From positions 1-45,386 of the IMG/VR virus record IMGVR_UViG_3300042343_000500: a stretch of DNA of 45,386 nucleotides; one strand, written 5' to 3'. This DNA is from a virus. How positions within the stretch are numbered: position 1 is the first letter of the stretch; each line of letters begins with the position of its first letter. Shown here in pieces: positions 3,845-26,260 of this stretch. Position numbers and translations under genes: made by a program. The notes beneath the pieces were generated by a model. That model ran no database searches, was not told the origin of the DNA, and saw nothing but the letters and a program-made list of their open reading frames with translations.

Positions 3845-3983
3845 TTGACGCAATTTAATTAATCGTTTAGTGGTCGCTTATAACGTAAGTGGGGTCGTTG
3901 CCACAAAGCGTAGAAGATTTCGCTACTTCAAAACAAGCGTGGAGTAAAATCCACAAAACCAACCCAATTAACTATTTTAACTT

Positions 3984-5171
3984 ATGCCTATCACCTGCAG
4001 TACGGTTGACAGCCTTTTCCAGCGCGAAACTGGCCGTTTCTCCGTCGATATTCAGCAACGCTATCAGGTCGAGTCCCCTTGGGGTCGCCTCGTCCGTGTT
4101 GGCAAATTCCCCCTCGGAATGGGTACTTCCCTTAACGAGATCACCGTCGAGCGTGTCCTTTCTGGCTCTATTGAGAACGATTGGTCGAACGTCTCTACTT
4201 CCAACGGCACTTCGTCCAATGGTTGTATTCCTGCTACGAATGATCTGGCCTTTGGTCAGACTGTTCAGAACTGGAATCTCCAGACTAAGGCCTATCAGAC
4301 TCCTTGCATCTGCTTGGACGATCTGAAGACCAGCTTCCAAGTTGAGTCGCAGGTTGCCAAGACAGTCGAACAGCTTACCCAGCTTACCAAGACGGTTCTC
4401 GACAACCGCCGCCGTAGCGAGTATCTGCGACTCGTTCCCAAGATCCAGTCTGGATTCACCACCGAATACACCAACCTTAACGGTGTTGGTGGCGTTCCCG
4501 TGCCTACCCTCCAGCTTTCGCAAGATCAGCTTGACGTTATCCGCGTTCAGCTTATCCGCGATGGTGCAGGTCACAACCCCCTTGGTCGCGAGAATGGTGC
4601 GGCAGTCCTTGGACTCATCACCAGCCCTGAGACCAGCCGTGCGCTCCTCCGCAACAATGCGGATCTGCGGCAGGACATCCGTTTCGGTACTCCTAGCGAG
4701 CTTGTTCAGCCCCTCGGCGTTGATCGTAGCTACGGCGGGTACTACCACATGGTTGATTTCGAGGTTCCTCGTTTCACCTACTCCACCTCTGGAGGCGGAA
4801 CTTACACGCAGGTTTATCCCTTCGTGCAACAGTCCACGACCAGCGGATTCAAGTGGGTTTCCAACCCCGCCTACAACACTGCGCCCCTTGAGGCCGCATA
4901 CATCTTCCACCCGGACGTGTATGAGGAAGCAGTTCAGCAGGTCGGGCCGAACATCCCCGGTGCGGCGTTTGACGACTATCCGTACTACTACAGCGGTCAG
5001 TTCTTCTGGCTGAACATCCGTAATGCCACGGACAACCCGCTTGGCAAGATCGGTCGTTGGTTGGCGATCTTCCAGAGTGGAAGCCGCCCCCTCCAGCCTT
5101 GGCTGGGTCGCGTGGTGATCCACAAGCGTTGCGCCAACGATCTCAGTTTTTCAACCTGCACAAACAGCTAA
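3984..5171 (+). CDS. Major capsid (coat) protein
   Basis: A 395-aa protein taken as the coat protein. Codon choice is strikingly different from its neighbours, dominated by C-ending and other preferred codons, as in the most highly expressed phage gene. It is followed by a strong intrinsic terminator at 5203-5246 and preceded by ~140 bp without genes. The sequence is mixed alpha/beta with a charged helix around residues 115-150 and aromatic-rich C-terminal strands, compatible with an HK97-like shell protein, but no diagnostic motif is visible. No Shine-Dalgarno is seen before ATG 3984, only an A/T-rich leader. It lies ~12 kb from portal and terminase, so the call rests on codon bias, size and terminator. 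Confidence 0.7.
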   Translation: MPITCSTVDSLFQRETGRFSVDIQQRYQVESPWGRLVRVGKFPLGMGTSLNEITVERVLSGSIENDWSNVSTSNGTSSNGCIPATNDLAFGQTVQNWNLQTKAYQTPCICLDDLKTSFQVESQVAKTVEQLTQLTKTVLDNRRRSEYLRLVPKIQSGFTTEYTNLNGVGGVPVPTLQLSQDQLDVIRVQLIRDGAGHNPLGRENGAAVLGLITSPETSRALLRNNADLRQDIRFGTPSELVQPLGVDRSYGGYYHMVDFEVPRFTYSTSGGGTYTQVYPFVQQSTTSGFKWVSNPAYNTAPLEAAYIFHPDVYEEAVQQVGPNIPGAAFDDYPYYYSGQFFWLNIRNATDNPLGKIGRWLAIFQSGSRPLQPWLGRVVIHKRCANDLSFSTCTNS

Positions 5172-21028: not shown

Positions 21029-22717
21029 ATGAAGCTCCAGACCTACGGGCTGGATGTCAGCAAGTTCCCGAAGGTAACTCAACTAGAGATTGAGTTGCTG
21101 ATGGTGGCTAACCATGACCCAAGCCGATTCTCTGGCTTGAGTCGTGGACAGCATATCAAGCATTGCATTGGTATGCTCTGGCCCGATGTGATGACTAGAT
21201 GGAATGATTGGAACGAACTTGCTCTATGGGCCTGGACTAATCACAACGAGATCGGAGTTACTGGGTGTGCGGCGGCAGGGAAGACATTCACATTCACGCT
21301 TCTTTCGCTAGTGGAGTATTTGGCAAAGCCTATGGGAACCCGTGTGGCACTGACTTCAACAACCGTTCCATCATTGCGTGGTCGCATTTGGGCAGAGATG
21401 ATGAAGTTTGTTCGACCCGTCTCTCCGCTGTTTGGGCTGAACCTCGTTGACTCACAAACCAAGATCCAGTTTGAAAAGGGAGATGATCGCTCTGCCATCA
21501 TAGCCCTTGCCGTGGATAGTGGAGCCGTTGAGCAAGCGGTTGGAAAGCTACAGGGTGTCCACTTGCCACGGATGGTGATTCTTGTGGACGAGGCGGCCCA
21601 AACAAACCCGGCGGTATTTTCAGCAAGGGCGAACTTGGAGGTTGGAACTGACTTCTACCACTTCATTGCCATTGCCAACGCATCATCCATGTTCGATCCT
21701 CACGGGCTGTTCTGTGAACCGAAGATGGGATGGGGTAGTATACAGGATGACGATGAGTTTTGGGAAACCAAGTCTGGCGTATGCGTCCGATTTGACGGGC
21801 TGAAGTCCCCCAACATCAAGGCTGGCAGGACAATCTATCCATATTTGTTTGGGCAGGACAACGTGGATACAATCCGCAAGAACTTTGGCGAAGGAAGCCT
21901 AGAATGGAATTCTTATTGCAGGGGGATGTGGAGCAAGGGAGGCGCAAGAAACACGCTCCTAGATGCCCCTACGATTGCTGAAGGGGGTGCTAGGGATAAC
22001 GTGCTGTGGGCTGGTGGAGGCATCACGACCATTGCCGCCCTTGATCCTGCATTCACGACTGATGGCGACGATTGTATTTTCCGACTTGGCAAGATGGGCA
22101 AGGCAGAGGACGGGCAGATGATGCTACTTGCCGATGAGATAATCCGACTGAACCTCATGGAAGACGCAAGTTACCCGTTGTTCTATCAAGTGGCAGATCA
22201 GACGATTGAATTACTGAAAAAGCATAACGTGCGTCCAGAAAACTTTGCGCTTGACGCTACTGGTGGAGGCGCAGGAATAGCAGACATCATTTCTCAGCGT
22301 TGGCAGAATGGATTCCACCGCATCAGCTTTGGAGGGGCGGCAACTGAAGCTCCAATTTCCGTTGAGGACACAAGGCCAGCCAAGCAAGTCTATGCCAATC
22401 GCGTTAGCCAATTATGGGGGCAAATCAAAGTCGTGGTCATGGCAGGTCGCATGAGGGGGCTTGACGATCAGACGGCAAGGGAGCTATGCGCTCGTATCTA
22501 CTCGCTCAAGAACGAGAAAATGGTGCTTGAGAGCAAGAAGGATTTGAAGAAGCGAACCAAGGGCAATTCACCTGACAGGGCTGATGCTCTTGCCTTGCTG
22601 GTGGAGGTTTTCGTAAACCAGAATGGGCTTGGGAACGCCACGGCAACTGATGGAATCAATGACGAAGATTGGGAAAAATTTGCGCTTGACCACGAAATCA
22701 CCACCTCGTATAGCTAG
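21029..22717 (+). CDS. terL: Terminase large subunit (ATPase and nuclease)
   Basis: A 562-aa protein. The ATPase domain has Walker A GCAAAGKT (79-86) and Walker B MVILVDEA (182-189, D187/E188). The C-terminal RNase H-like nuclease has the acidic residues D339 in AALDPAF, D409 in FALDATGGG and D516/D519 in SPDRADAL. This is the DNA-packaging motor that cuts concatemers and docks on the portal. It starts four bases after the scaffold-like gene. A small-subunit candidate lies ~10 kb away at 32420, not next to it. Confidence 0.95.
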   Translation: MKLQTYGLDVSKFPKVTQLEIELLMVANHDPSRFSGLSRGQHIKHCIGMLWPDVMTRWNDWNELALWAWTNHNEIGVTGCAAAGKTFTFTLLSLVEYLAKPMGTRVALTSTTVPSLRGRIWAEMMKFVRPVSPLFGLNLVDSQTKIQFEKGDDRSAIIALAVDSGAVEQAVGKLQGVHLPRMVILVDEAAQTNPAVFSARANLEVGTDFYHFIAIANASSMFDPHGLFCEPKMGWGSIQDDDEFWETKSGVCVRFDGLKSPNIKAGRTIYPYLFGQDNVDTIRKNFGEGSLEWNSYCRGMWSKGGARNTLLDAPTIAEGGARDNVLWAGGGITTIAALDPAFTTDGDDCIFRLGKMGKAEDGQMMLLADEIIRLNLMEDASYPLFYQVADQTIELLKKHNVRPENFALDATGGGAGIADIISQRWQNGFHRISFGGAATEAPISVEDTRPAKQVYANRVSQLWGQIKVVVMAGRMRGLDDQTARELCARIYSLKNEKMVLESKKDLKKRTKGNSPDRADALALLVEVFVNQNGLGNATATDGINDEDWEKFALDHEITTSYS

Positions 22718-22761: not shown

Positions 22762-22965
22762 ATGAAAATAGACTACACTTGCCAAAACGAAGAATGCGAA
22801 CATGAGTTTGAAATTCGCTTCACACCAGCAACTCTAGACAAGAATATGAGTGGACGCTTTGAGGACGCAGAACAAGGATCGTCAGCAGAAGTATATCCAC
22901 AGGAATGCGAGGAATGCGGAACTGAAGTGGATCTTGAGGCGGTGGAATCAGAACTTGAGGATTAG
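22762..22965 (+). CDS. Small zinc-ribbon protein
   Basis: A 67-aa acidic protein with CQNEEC near the start and CEECGTEVD near residue 50, a CxxxxC...CxxC ribbon. It comes just before the methyltransferase with a short gap. It may be a DNA- or protein-binding zinc module; the family is not recognised. Confidence 0.55.
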   Translation: MKIDYTCQNEECEHEFEIRFTPATLDKNMSGRFEDAEQGSSAEVYPQECEECGTEVDLEAVESELED

Positions 22966-22972
22966 GAGGAAC

Positions 22973-23920
22973 ATGAATGAGCTACACCTTTTTGCAGGAG
23001 CAGGGGGAGGAATCCTCGGCGGACACCTTCTCGGACATACCACAGTATGTGCTGTTGAGATTGAACCTTATTGCCGACGAGTCTTGCTCCAACGGCAACG
23101 AGATGGAATCTTGCCAAAGTTCCCAATATGGGATGATGTTACAACATTTGACGGCAACCCGTGGAGAGGAAAAGTCGATGTCGTCTGCGGGGGTTTTCCC
23201 TGTCAAGACATCTCAGCAGCAGGAAAAGGAGCCGGGATCACAGGAGAACGAAGCGGTCTCTGGTCAGAAATGGCCAGAATCATTGGCGAAATACGACCCA
23301 AATACGCATTCGTGGAGAACTCACCAATGCTTACTCTTCGAGGACTTGACCGAGTGCTTGGCGATCTTTCCGAAATGGGGTATGATGCACGATGGGGAGT
23401 TGTGGGAGCTTACCATGTCGGCGCACCTCATAGAAGAGAACGAATCTGGATTACAGCCAGACGGGATAAATTTCTTTCATACTCCCAACACAACGGGGCT
23501 GGATGGGGGCAGCAGCAGCAGGAAAGCATTGAAGAAAAGACAGGGAATGATATGGCCTACTCCACTCAGTTGTTCTGCAATGGCGGCGACGATAACTCCG
23601 GATTCAGTCTGGAACGAGAATCGCTTTCAAAACTTGGAAACAATTGTAGGACGGAGTATGTGGCCGACTCCATGTGCAAGCGACAACCGAGACAGGGGTC
23701 ATATTGGTATGCCAGTGATCCAGCGGAGAAAAGAGAAGGGGAAGCAGATAGGTCTTGGGCAGAGCGTGTCGGACACATCTGGGGCATTGAATCCAGATTG
23801 GGTCGAGTGGCTAATGGGGTGGCCGATAGGGTGGACAGACTTAAAGCCATTGGAAATGGTCAGGTTCCAATCGTGGCGGCAACAGCATTCAGACTTCTTT
23901 CAGAATCATTAACTAAATAA
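22973..23920 (+). CDS. C5-cytosine DNA methyltransferase
   Basis: A 315-aa protein starting at ATG 22973, with AGGAGGA at the right distance upstream. Motif I LFAGAGGG (6-13), catalytic GGFPCQDIS (P76-C77), ENSP (115-118), and APHRRERIW (151-159) carrying the Q/R-x-R element are all present, with C-terminal AIGNGQVPIVAATAFRLL as motif X. The target-recognition region (~170-285) is Gln/Ser/Gly-rich and contains ADS and VANGVADRVDRL elements. It methylates C in an unknown site, most likely to hide phage DNA from host restriction. No cognate restriction enzyme is seen. The same DNA is also open in the +1 frame over almost its full length. Confidence 0.9.
   Translation: MNELHLFAGAGGGILGGHLLGHTTVCAVEIEPYCRRVLLQRQRDGILPKFPIWDDVTTFDGNPWRGKVDVVCGGFPCQDISAAGKGAGITGERSGLWSEMARIIGEIRPKYAFVENSPMLTLRGLDRVLGDLSEMGYDARWGVVGAYHVGAPHRRERIWITARRDKFLSYSQHNGAGWGQQQQESIEEKTGNDMAYSTQLFCNGGDDNSGFSLERESLSKLGNNCRTEYVADSMCKRQPRQGSYWYASDPAEKREGEADRSWAERVGHIWGIESRLGRVANGVADRVDRLKAIGNGQVPIVAATAFRLLSESLTK
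22977..23912 (+). CDS. Overprinted protein in the +1 frame of the methyltransferase (WPTP / GWPxGWT type)
   Basis: An ORF of 311 aa lying wholly inside the methyltransferase gene. From about ATG 23178 (residue 68; 244 aa) the product looks like a real protein, not random sequence: WPESLAKYDPNTHSWRT, LFEDLTECLAIFPKWGMM, two WPTP elements (WPTPLSCSA and WPTPCASD), and LNPDWVEWLMGWPIGWTDL. I recall this pattern from phage ORFs beside or over cytosine methyltransferases. In frame, WPTP codons read as the ADS of the methyltransferase. It is dense in Trp and has no membrane segment. No activity is known to me. It could assist or inhibit the methylase. The N-terminal 67 residues look less protein-like. 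Confidence 0.6.
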   Translation: MSYTFLQEQGEESSADTFSDIPQYVLLRLNLIADESCSNGNEMESCQSSQYGMMLQHLTATRGEEKSMSSAGVFPVKTSQQQEKEPGSQENEAVSGQKWPESLAKYDPNTHSWRTHQCLLFEDLTECLAIFPKWGMMHDGELWELTMSAHLIEENESGLQPDGINFFHTPNTTGLDGGSSSRKALKKRQGMIWPTPLSCSAMAATITPDSVWNENRFQNLETIVGRSMWPTPCASDNRDRGHIGMPVIQRRKEKGKQIGLGQSVSDTSGALNPDWVEWLMGWPIGWTDLKPLEMVRFQSWRQQHSDFFQNH

Positions 23921-23924
23921 ATTT

Positions 23925-24641
23925 ATGAACAAAGTAAAACTAGAGCGCAACGCTCCACACCAAACCTACCACCTATCCGATGGCACGAAAGTTCCCGGAG
24001 GGTCAACCATCTGCAAGATTGGAGACGATGCAAGCGCATTGCTTCATTGGGCATGGAAACTAGGAACTGAGGGCAAGGACTATCGTAAGGAGCGAGACAA
24101 GGCCGCAGACATTGGCACGATTGCTCATTTCCTTATCGAGTGCTTCTTGAATAATCAAGTGGCCGATCTATCCGACTATGGACAGGAGGACATTGACAAG
24201 GCTCTTTTGTGCTACAACAAGTTTGTTGATTGGTGGGATGAGCAGAACCTTGAGAAGGTAGCAACGGAGATTCAACTTGTAAACGAGGCTTACAAGTACG
24301 GAGGAACCATTGACTTGATCGCCAAGAAACCGAATGGAGATCATGTGTTAATTGACTTCAAGACTAGTAAGAAAATCAGCGAGAGCTATTGGAGGCAATG
24401 CGCTGGATACGCACAGCTATGGAATTGCAATGGATGGGAAGGCGAGATTGATGCTGAAGACCACAGGATCACCAACCACGCAATCGTCCGAATCGGCAAG
24501 GAAGAGGAAGGAGACTTTGAGGTTATCTGGCGCGATGACTTGTCAAAGGAGTGGTTTGTCTTCCAGAAGCAAGTTGAACTTTATTGGGCCATGCAAGCCG
24601 CTAAGCCAGAACCCAAGCCCCGTGGGAGGAAGAAGAAATGA
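23925..24641 (+). CDS. PD-(D/E)XK exonuclease (RecB/Cas4-like)
   Basis: A 238-aa protein with the RecB-type nuclease order: DIGTIAHFLIECFL (H68, E72), EIQLVNEAYKYGGTIDLIA (E115 and D130), then VLIDFKTSKK (D144, K146), and a QCAGYAQLW helix carrying the conserved Gln and Tyr. Such phage proteins degrade one strand for recombination and would pair with the ERF annealing protein. It lies between the methyltransferase and helicase genes and overlaps the next gene. The C-terminus is basic (PKPRGRKKK). Confidence 0.85.
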   Translation: MNKVKLERNAPHQTYHLSDGTKVPGGSTICKIGDDASALLHWAWKLGTEGKDYRKERDKAADIGTIAHFLIECFLNNQVADLSDYGQEDIDKALLCYNKFVDWWDEQNLEKVATEIQLVNEAYKYGGTIDLIAKKPNGDHVLIDFKTSKKISESYWRQCAGYAQLWNCNGWEGEIDAEDHRITNHAIVRIGKEEEGDFEVIWRDDLSKEWFVFQKQVELYWAMQAAKPEPKPRGRKKK

Positions 24642-24850: not shown

Positions 24851-25044
24851 CCACTCCCTACACAGAAAAGAACTTTAACGCCATGCTTGATAGGCTTTCC
24901 GAAGTTATGAAGCAACGCAATGCGGCAATGATCCTAGCCAAGGCCGCAGTTGACGGGGCAGACCGATCAGAGATGCAGGAAGCATACGAACTACTCAAAA
25001 CAGAAATCAGCAAAAACCATGACAACAACACCAGCCAGCCTTGA
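24847..25044 (+). CDS. Small helical protein before the helicase
   Basis: A 65-aa protein starting at ATG 24847 (ATGA overlap), all-helical and charged. Its 3' end overlaps the helicase start by 26 bases. It could be a helicase accessory or loader by position; no family is recognised. Confidence 0.5.
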   Translation: MTTPYTEKNFNAMLDRLSEVMKQRNAAMILAKAAVDGADRSEMQEAYELLKTEISKNHDNNTSQP

Positions 25045-26260
25045 CGCAGAGAAAGCATTCCTTTCTTGCGCGATCCAGAACATCAGCATTCTAAACGAGG
25101 CGGCAGACTATGCCTCTCCCAAGCTATTTCATCACCCTTGCCACAAGCGAGTCTTTGAATCGGCATTGGAACTATGGAAGGAAGGGAAGGACTGCGATCT
25201 AGTCACGCTCACAGATGCCATGTCCAATGCAGGGACATTGGATGATGCGGGTGGTGCGGCATTCTTAACGGAATGCTTCATGGCCCCATCTGTTCAATCA
25301 AACTGGCGCGAATACCTAGAGATCCTTCGACACAAACACACGGCACGACTAGCTATCTCTGCCGCCGAAAGGATTATCGCTTCAGCCCACAATCCAGCGG
25401 AGGCAGGAGAGTTAAGCGAAGTTGTTCAGAAAGCATTGGTCGCTGTAGCCGCTGATGCAGAGAGCAAGGGGCGTATTGAATCGCTGAAAGAGGTTGCTCT
25501 AAACAGGGTCAACGCCTACGAGGAAATCTTTAAGAACAGGGGAAAGCTGATTGGCGTTACAACTGGATTTAAGCCATTGGATGATATTACAGGGGGCTTC
25601 CGTGAGGGGCAACTGATCGTAATCGGAGCCGCAACCAAGGGAGGGAAGACCAGCATGGCAGTCAACATGGCTACCCGTGCCGCCAACGCTGGACATCCCG
25701 TGGGATTCATCAGCCTAGAGATGAGTAGTGGTGAGTTGTTTGACCGATTCGTTTCATCTTATGGTGGAGTGGACATCAGCGTGTTAAGCAAGGAGCCTAG
25801 CAAGCGAGACATTGATGGCATTTCAAGGGCGGCGGCACAGGCATCATTACTCCCTATCTTCATTCGCGACGAAGGGGATGTGAACCCGCTTCAACTACGG
25901 GCGGCAATGCGCCGTATGTGTGCCGTTCACAGGACTCGTATAATCGTCGTAGATTACATTCAGTTGCTATCCCCCGCAGATCGTAAGGACAGCCGCGAAA
26001 GACAGGTTGCAGAGGCTTCTAGGACGCTTAAACAGCTTGCCAAGGAACTCAACATCACCATCATTGCCCTTACCCAGCTTAACGCTGACGGGGCAAGCCG
26101 CGAATCCAGAGCAATCGAACACGACTGCGACCTTTTCTTGGTGATTGAACGCGACGATGAGAACCAATGGTTCTTAAATATAAGGCTTGCAAGAGCCTGT
26201 GGACGGGCTAGAATCCCTCTTGAATTTCGTGAGAGCTTTATGCGCTTTGACGAGAAGTAA
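25019..26260 (+). CDS. DnaB-family replicative helicase
   Basis: A 413-aa protein from ATG 25019; an upstream in-frame start would run deep into the previous gene. The N-terminal domain (~1-110) matches the DnaB N-terminal fold (LDAEKAFLSCAIQN, LFHHPCHKRVFESALELW). The RecA core has G-F-K-P-L-D-D-I-T-G-G (~183-193), Walker A GAATKGGKT (203-211), ISLEM (~231-235) and Walker B RIIVVDYIQLL (D312). It should unwind DNA at forks as a hexamer. No phage primase or polymerase is seen, so host enzymes must complete the replisome. Confidence 0.92.
   Translation: MTTTPASLDAEKAFLSCAIQNISILNEAADYASPKLFHHPCHKRVFESALELWKEGKDCDLVTLTDAMSNAGTLDDAGGAAFLTECFMAPSVQSNWREYLEILRHKHTARLAISAAERIIASAHNPAEAGELSEVVQKALVAVAADAESKGRIESLKEVALNRVNAYEEIFKNRGKLIGVTTGFKPLDDITGGFREGQLIVIGAATKGGKTSMAVNMATRAANAGHPVGFISLEMSSGELFDRFVSSYGGVDISVLSKEPSKRDIDGISRAAAQASLLPIFIRDEGDVNPLQLRAAMRRMCAVHRTRIIVVDYIQLLSPADRKDSRERQVAEASRTLKQLAKELNITIIALTQLNADGASRESRAIEHDCDLFLVIERDDENQWFLNIRLARACGRARIPLEFRESFMRFDEK

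Follow-up and report, generated by a model that had tools for sequence, protein, structure and literature searches.

A +1-frame protein nested in a phage C5-cytosine methyltransferase gene is probably the TRD/motif IX part of the same enzyme

The window, that is, the whole 45,386-nt stretch of viral DNA analysed here, contains a C5-cytosine methyltransferase gene that can be read in two frames along nearly its full length, which raises the question of whether the second frame encodes a genuine protein and, if so, what this protein contributes. The first frame (M) runs on the + strand from the ATG at 22973 to the TAA at 23918–23920 and encodes 315 aa. The second (W), +1 relative to M, runs on the same strand from the ATG at 22977 to the TAA at 23910–23912 and comprises 311 codons with no internal stop, and the third forward frame is open for at most 65 codons across the locus. 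The sequence confirmed the initial annotation, which had described a complete methylase together with an uninterrupted 311-codon +1 ORF starting four bases later, and the motifs named there were all found, namely PCQ, ENSP, and GNGQVP in M and WPESLAKYDPNTHSWRTHQ, two WPTP elements, and ALNPDWVEWLMGWPIGW in W. Both ATGs lie in the sequence ATGAATGAG, preceded by a putative Shine-Dalgarno site, AGGAGG (22964–22969, +), which is 3 nt from the M ATG and 7 nt from the W ATG and is assigned from its sequence and from the spacing in homologues. The neighbouring genes at 21029–22717, 23925–24641, and 24950–26260 match PHROGs of the terminase large subunit (weakly), an exonuclease, and a DnaB-like helicase, respectively, thus the window resembles a tailed-phage genome fragment. 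Another long overlap, this time antisense, occurs in the window at 3972–5123 (−), where a 383-codon ORF covers nearly all of a 395-codon ORF at 3984–5171 (+).

Relatives of the locus were gathered with W, with M, and with W in bacterial and archaeal genomes, the M-seeded set being unbiased by W. The earlier statement that phage methylase genes are accompanied by ORFs of this type was correct; the M/W arrangement recurs in related phages and prophages, well over a hundred of them, and W usually has no annotation there. When the synonymous codons of the window's M gene were permuted, W was open in 64 of 20,000 trials; therefore, the open frame of this gene alone is only suggestive and it is the homologues that are decisive. 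Permutation of 58 nonredundant M genes gave a mean of 4.65 stops per gene, by which 0.36 fully open genes would be expected, compared with the 46 observed. This strict count penalizes the natural end of W ahead of the end of M and consequently understates the number of intact W frames. In a domain-based count, W was intact in 49 of the 50 nonredundant M-seeded loci that have the needed domains, and the sole exception, L095, carried one TAA in W; interruption of W by stops is thus not the pattern seen in homologues. The +1 frame of the flanking genes contains approximately 5 stops per 100 codons. Judging from these comparisons of sequences, the open W frame is not due to chance.

The start of W is conserved as well. 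Its ATG (22977–22979, +) is formed by an AAT codon, which is codon 2 of M, and this Asn codon was AAT in 134 of 135 genes and AAC in one, compared with 728 AAT and 1060 AAC codons elsewhere in M (41% AAT, n = 1788). The log10 p of this bias is about −50 assuming independent genes, and the genes are not fully independent. Among the loci where the tblastn match of W begins at residue 1, 163 of 170 have an ATG start, and the M start lies exactly 4 nt 5′ of the W start in 115 of 140 nonredundant loci. Across the homologues, recognizable Shine-Dalgarno sites lie at a median of 8 nt before the W ATG, which places them about 4 nt from the M ATG.

Substitution patterns were compared in 51 independent homologue pairs with 80–97.5% nucleotide identity. 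The dNN/dNS ratio, which reflects selection on W, was 0.42 overall and 0.39 after residue 165, while dNN/dSN, reflecting selection on M, was 0.36 overall and rose to 0.71 after residue 165. As controls, a fictitious +1 frame of the flanking genes gave 0.76 (22 pairs) and M-only simulations gave 0.58–1.03 according to the transition/transversion ratio. The rates at the three codon positions of M after residue 165 were 0.26, 0.13, and 0.17, compared with 0.057, 0.033, and 0.229 in the flanking genes; the fastest base in this part is thus the third position of W codons, which is the clearest sign of selection on W. In the first 65 codons, the M rhythm dominates (0.066, 0.024, 0.151) and conservation of W is weakly supported. 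Substitutions that are synonymous in M are still constrained in W. Since W is intact in relatives, the AAT choice at its start is kept, and the last part of the gene evolves on the W codon rhythm, W is a selected protein. The proposal that both products are selected is accordingly strongly supported by the permutations, the start codon, the substitution rates, and the intact W frames.

One of the two frames is broken in a few loci. The M frame is interrupted and W is open in L009 3810, L056 3759, L061 1154, L183 3438, L196 3423, L201 1937, and L078 3744; these interruptions are single nonsense codons (possibly more than one in L078), and they may reflect either true loss of M or metagenomic error. 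A single recoded stop codon was considered as their explanation and rejected, as TAA, TAG, and TGA are all represented. Conversely, L045 3430 and L095 3431 have one internal W stop and an intact M, with both stops at nearly the same place.

The M chain has the features of the catalytic half of a C5-cytosine methyltransferase. It matches PF00145, phrog_363, TIGR00675 (below cut-off), and, by phmmer, M.HhaI, and its motifs for AdoMet binding and catalysis are I, IV (PCQ), VI (ENS), VIII, and X, including motif IV GGFPCQDIS (M 73–81; 23189–23215, +), motif VI VENSP (M 114–118; 23312–23326, +), and motif X AIGNGQVP (M 292–299; 23846–23869, +). The PF00145 match is limited to profile positions 3–175 of 324, and no further match to this profile was found anywhere in this viral record (IMGVR_UViG_3300042343_000500). 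In the M alignment motifs I–VIII and X are conserved and residues from about 165 to 270 are blank; thus, the TRD and motif IX, which the usual single-chain form has on this chain, were not seen on M, the Pfam match ending at 175 of 324 and the 165–270 stretch being unconserved. A conserved M element, GRVANGVADRVDRL, does sit directly over motif IX of W. L228 and L309 carry motif X on W, and there a comparable pattern in the M frame persists, scoring 25 bits, in a short ORF that is separate from M; at least part of the M conservation over motif IX of W is therefore a by-product of W.

The W protein matches phrog_1008 (“DNA methyltransferase”) with an E-value of 5.2e-27, residues 66–289 aligning to profile positions 36–281 of 329, and had no match in Pfam, NCBIfam, or PADLOC. 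Three PHROGs with unassigned function (phrog_26627, phrog_35493, and phrog_27243) match only the motif IX end of W (residues 264–305) and are probably this end of W taken from short ORF calls. The conserved parts of the W alignment are a YDP..SWRT..GMM..G block, the PTP elements, and above all LNPxWVEWLMGWPxGWTDL. In the window, the corresponding elements are WPESLAKYDPNTHSWRTHQ (W 99–117; 23271–23327, +), which overlaps motif VI of M, the WPTP elements at W 193–196 (23553–23564, +) and W 229–232 (23661–23672, +), and the motif IX-like block ALNPDWVEWLMGWPIGW (W 270–286; 23784–23834, +). The C-terminal block aligns without gaps to motif IX of M.HhaI, LxPx5(L/V)MGxP, an alignment to which hhalign gives no significance: when W was compared with sequences of M.HhaI and M.HaeIII, motif IX was the best region in two of three comparisons and none was significant. 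A sequence search of W against the PDB gave no relevant match and no significant relation to the small domains of solved methyltransferases, a Pfam search of the W proteins that carry motif X detected neither IX nor X, and a search of W against plasmids gave nine records, none pointing to EcoHK31I.

The relatives differ in how these parts are distributed over the chains. The fully nested form with motif X on M, as in the window, accounts for 293 of 332 loci (redundancy included). In single-chain homologues, which are rare, the W domain follows motif VIII and precedes motif X: the 723-aa protein of L244, from an actinobacterial MAG, contains motifs I–VIII, FARFDEKTLSWRS, several PTP elements, and LNPDWVEWLMGWPVGW, followed by RLKACGNGQVP, and an identical 346-aa protein found in a genome and a viral contig (L336/L356) matches the methyltransferase PHROGs phrog_363 and phrog_116 along the protein and phrog_1008, the W family, at residues 181–337. 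In a third arrangement, seen in about 10 loci, W carries both the motif IX-like block and X, and M ends 4–49 residues past the I–VIII match, L147 excepted, so that M has hardly any space for a TRD, if it has any. Frame switches within the overlap, joining I–VIII to the W end with X in another frame, were seen in L288, L290, L292, L294, L281, L037, and L067; these are possibly indels that swap the frames.

Structure prediction was informative for the catalytic part. The AF2 model of W, built from 142 sequences, had a pLDDT of 60, with residues 1–100 disordered and the C-terminal part better (60s to 85), and Foldseek found no match to it in the PDB at E ≤ 0.001. The single-chain protein L356 gave a pLDDT of 72 and a pTM of 0.63, the catalytic half being good and the motif IX–X part mostly 63–87, while residues 174–250, i.e. 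the PTP region, stayed below 50; the W-type rows of the folding alignment cover the motif IX–X end and not this region. Foldseek matched this model to M.HhaI at 5e-16 over 163 columns, a span no longer than the catalytic part. Given this length and the low pLDDT of the PTP region, AF2 confirms the catalytic domain alone and not a TRD fold.

Considering these results, we conclude that the locus probably encodes one heteromeric C5-cytosine DNA methyltransferase, in which W would be the TRD/motif IX part of the enzyme of M. Three observations make W best read as the other subunit: M is without motif IX, the motif IX-like block of W is rightly placed relative to X on shared chains, and M chains of the loci with X on W have little or no space for a TRD. 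The few loci in which one of the two frames is broken count against two subunits. The initial annotation suggested that W may modulate the methylase or counter host defence, and the evidence favours a part of the same methyltransferase instead. The view that W is an independent accessory protein whose frame was overprinted on the gene of the methylase, for instance to regulate or inhibit this enzyme or to act against restriction, would agree with its poor AF2 model and with the lack of significant sequence relation to solved small domains, but an accessory protein should have no homologue inside the enzyme's own chain, and W-family sequence is fused in frame between VIII and X in L244 and L336/L356. 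As motif X can also sit on W and M is missing IX without it, we consider this explanation very unlikely.

A nearer alternative, still unlikely, is that W brings only motif IX and a dimerization surface and that the TRD remains in the variable 165–270 part of M. TRDs are variable, as this stretch is, and the predicted TRD of M.EcoHK31I lies on the large subunit (PMC3404938), but the short M chains of the X-on-W loci, which stop soon after I–VIII in all but one case and are accompanied by a W of the same family, are difficult to reconcile with it, and so are the dN/dS of 0.71 and the W codon rhythm past M residue 165 and the position of the PTP region between VIII and X in single-chain forms. 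It is scarcely credible that W is merely a by-product, the M protein sequence and codon usage happening to keep a similar +1 frame open. Such an effect could account for the permutations of the window gene in which W stayed open and for the M rhythm of the first 65 codons, but hardly for 46 open genes where less than one was expected, the near-invariant AAT at the start, the W rhythm and the relaxation of M towards the end of the gene, or the uninterrupted W frames of loci with a nonsense codon in M.

If W is the second subunit, M would fold as the AdoMet-binding catalytic domain (I–VIII and X), and W would provide the missing small domain, a WPTP-type TRD and motif IX, in trans. A single ribosome-binding site would feed the two start codons 4 nt apart, by which both subunits could be made from the same message, and their assembly would yield an enzyme methylating a specific cytosine-containing site. 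Orphan methyltransferases of phages usually serve to protect phage DNA against restriction by methylation, and shielding from host restriction would be the simplest role here too. We infer the expression of W, the assembly with M, the need for both chains, the target site, and the protective role from the arrangement described above. Should this hold, phage methyltransferases annotated as complete single enzymes miss their specificity subunit in the record, with the partner unannotated in the same DNA; expression or knockout of M only would mislead, and the M sequence by itself would not reveal the target site. The locus would also be a rare, nearly gene-long same-strand overlap with a clear logic, namely two subunits of one enzyme.

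The graded series of relatives (single-chain, partly overlapping, and fully nested) makes the origin of the overlap testable. As far as can be read from sequence, the M-frame by-product pattern of L228 and L309 speaks for compensating frameshifts, rather than de novo overprinting, as the origin. Tentatively, and with somewhat less than an even chance of being right as a whole, a wider picture can be proposed: the locus would represent a large, mostly unannotated class of dual-coded C5-methyltransferases of phages and prophages, in which two compensating frameshifts transferred the part of a single-chain enzyme that holds the TRD and motif IX to the +1 frame. Residues 165–270 of M would then be the frame-shifted shadow of the W TRD, the first ~95 residues of W the shadow of M, and the nested starts on one ribosome-binding site would set the stoichiometry, so that a split enzyme has been folded onto its own gene rather than overprinted de novo.

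The length of the overlap was overrated when it was placed among the longest on the same strand, as p69 of Turnip yellow mosaic virus has 626 aa (PMC8227390). A search of a collection of open-access papers found no description of the nested phage M/W overlap. An out-of-frame product within a phage DNA methylase gene is known from the ShiLan insertion in phage methylases (PMC11855218), as in the case of W, but what is concealed there is a mobile element, an inserted HNH endonuclease with no relation to W. Among annotated families, phrog_1008 has W as a member by profile match and gives no role beyond its name. An annotated counterpart, gp49/gp50 of Paenibacillus phage Diva (“g49 internal gene”), is likewise a methyltransferase with a nested +1-frame gene, but its annotated start is 184 nt into the methyltransferase and it is labelled hypothetical. 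Outside Paenibacillus phages and actinophages, a single feature is annotated under W in the nested phage records listed. Adjacent pairs of methylase genes are present in many mycobacteriophages; the “DNA methylase” pairs of Rebeuca (gp79/gp80) and Phanphagia (gp65/gp66), and gp32/gp33 of Streptomyces phage Vash, consist of a methyltransferase and a second gene annotated as methylase, which in Phanphagia and Vash bears W-type motifs IX and X. Unlike M and W, these annotated pairs overlap only partly.

Of the split C5-methyltransferases, M.AquI (CYCGRG) resembles the minority of loci with X on W (L169, L228, L260, L311, and others) and differs from the window locus, where motif X is on M and not on the second chain. 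M.EcoHK31I (YGGCCR; Lee et al. 1995 NAR 23:103) reportedly has its small-subunit gene nested within that of the large subunit, in a different reading frame, the beta polypeptide of 176 aa reportedly starting well inside alpha. Both enzymes consist of two polypeptides, and in M.EcoHK31I motifs I–VIII and X are on the large subunit and motif IX only on the small one (PMC3404938). M fits the large chain of enzymes of this kind, having I–VIII and X and lacking IX, and as in the described arrangement of M.EcoHK31I the second polypeptide is nested in an alternate frame; in contrast, W is 311 aa long, its start follows that of M by 4 nt, and it seems to include the TRD as well, a domain predicted for the large chain of M.EcoHK31I. 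By this analogy, the M/W locus appears to be a start-coupled form of the two-polypeptide C5 enzymes that is widespread among phages.
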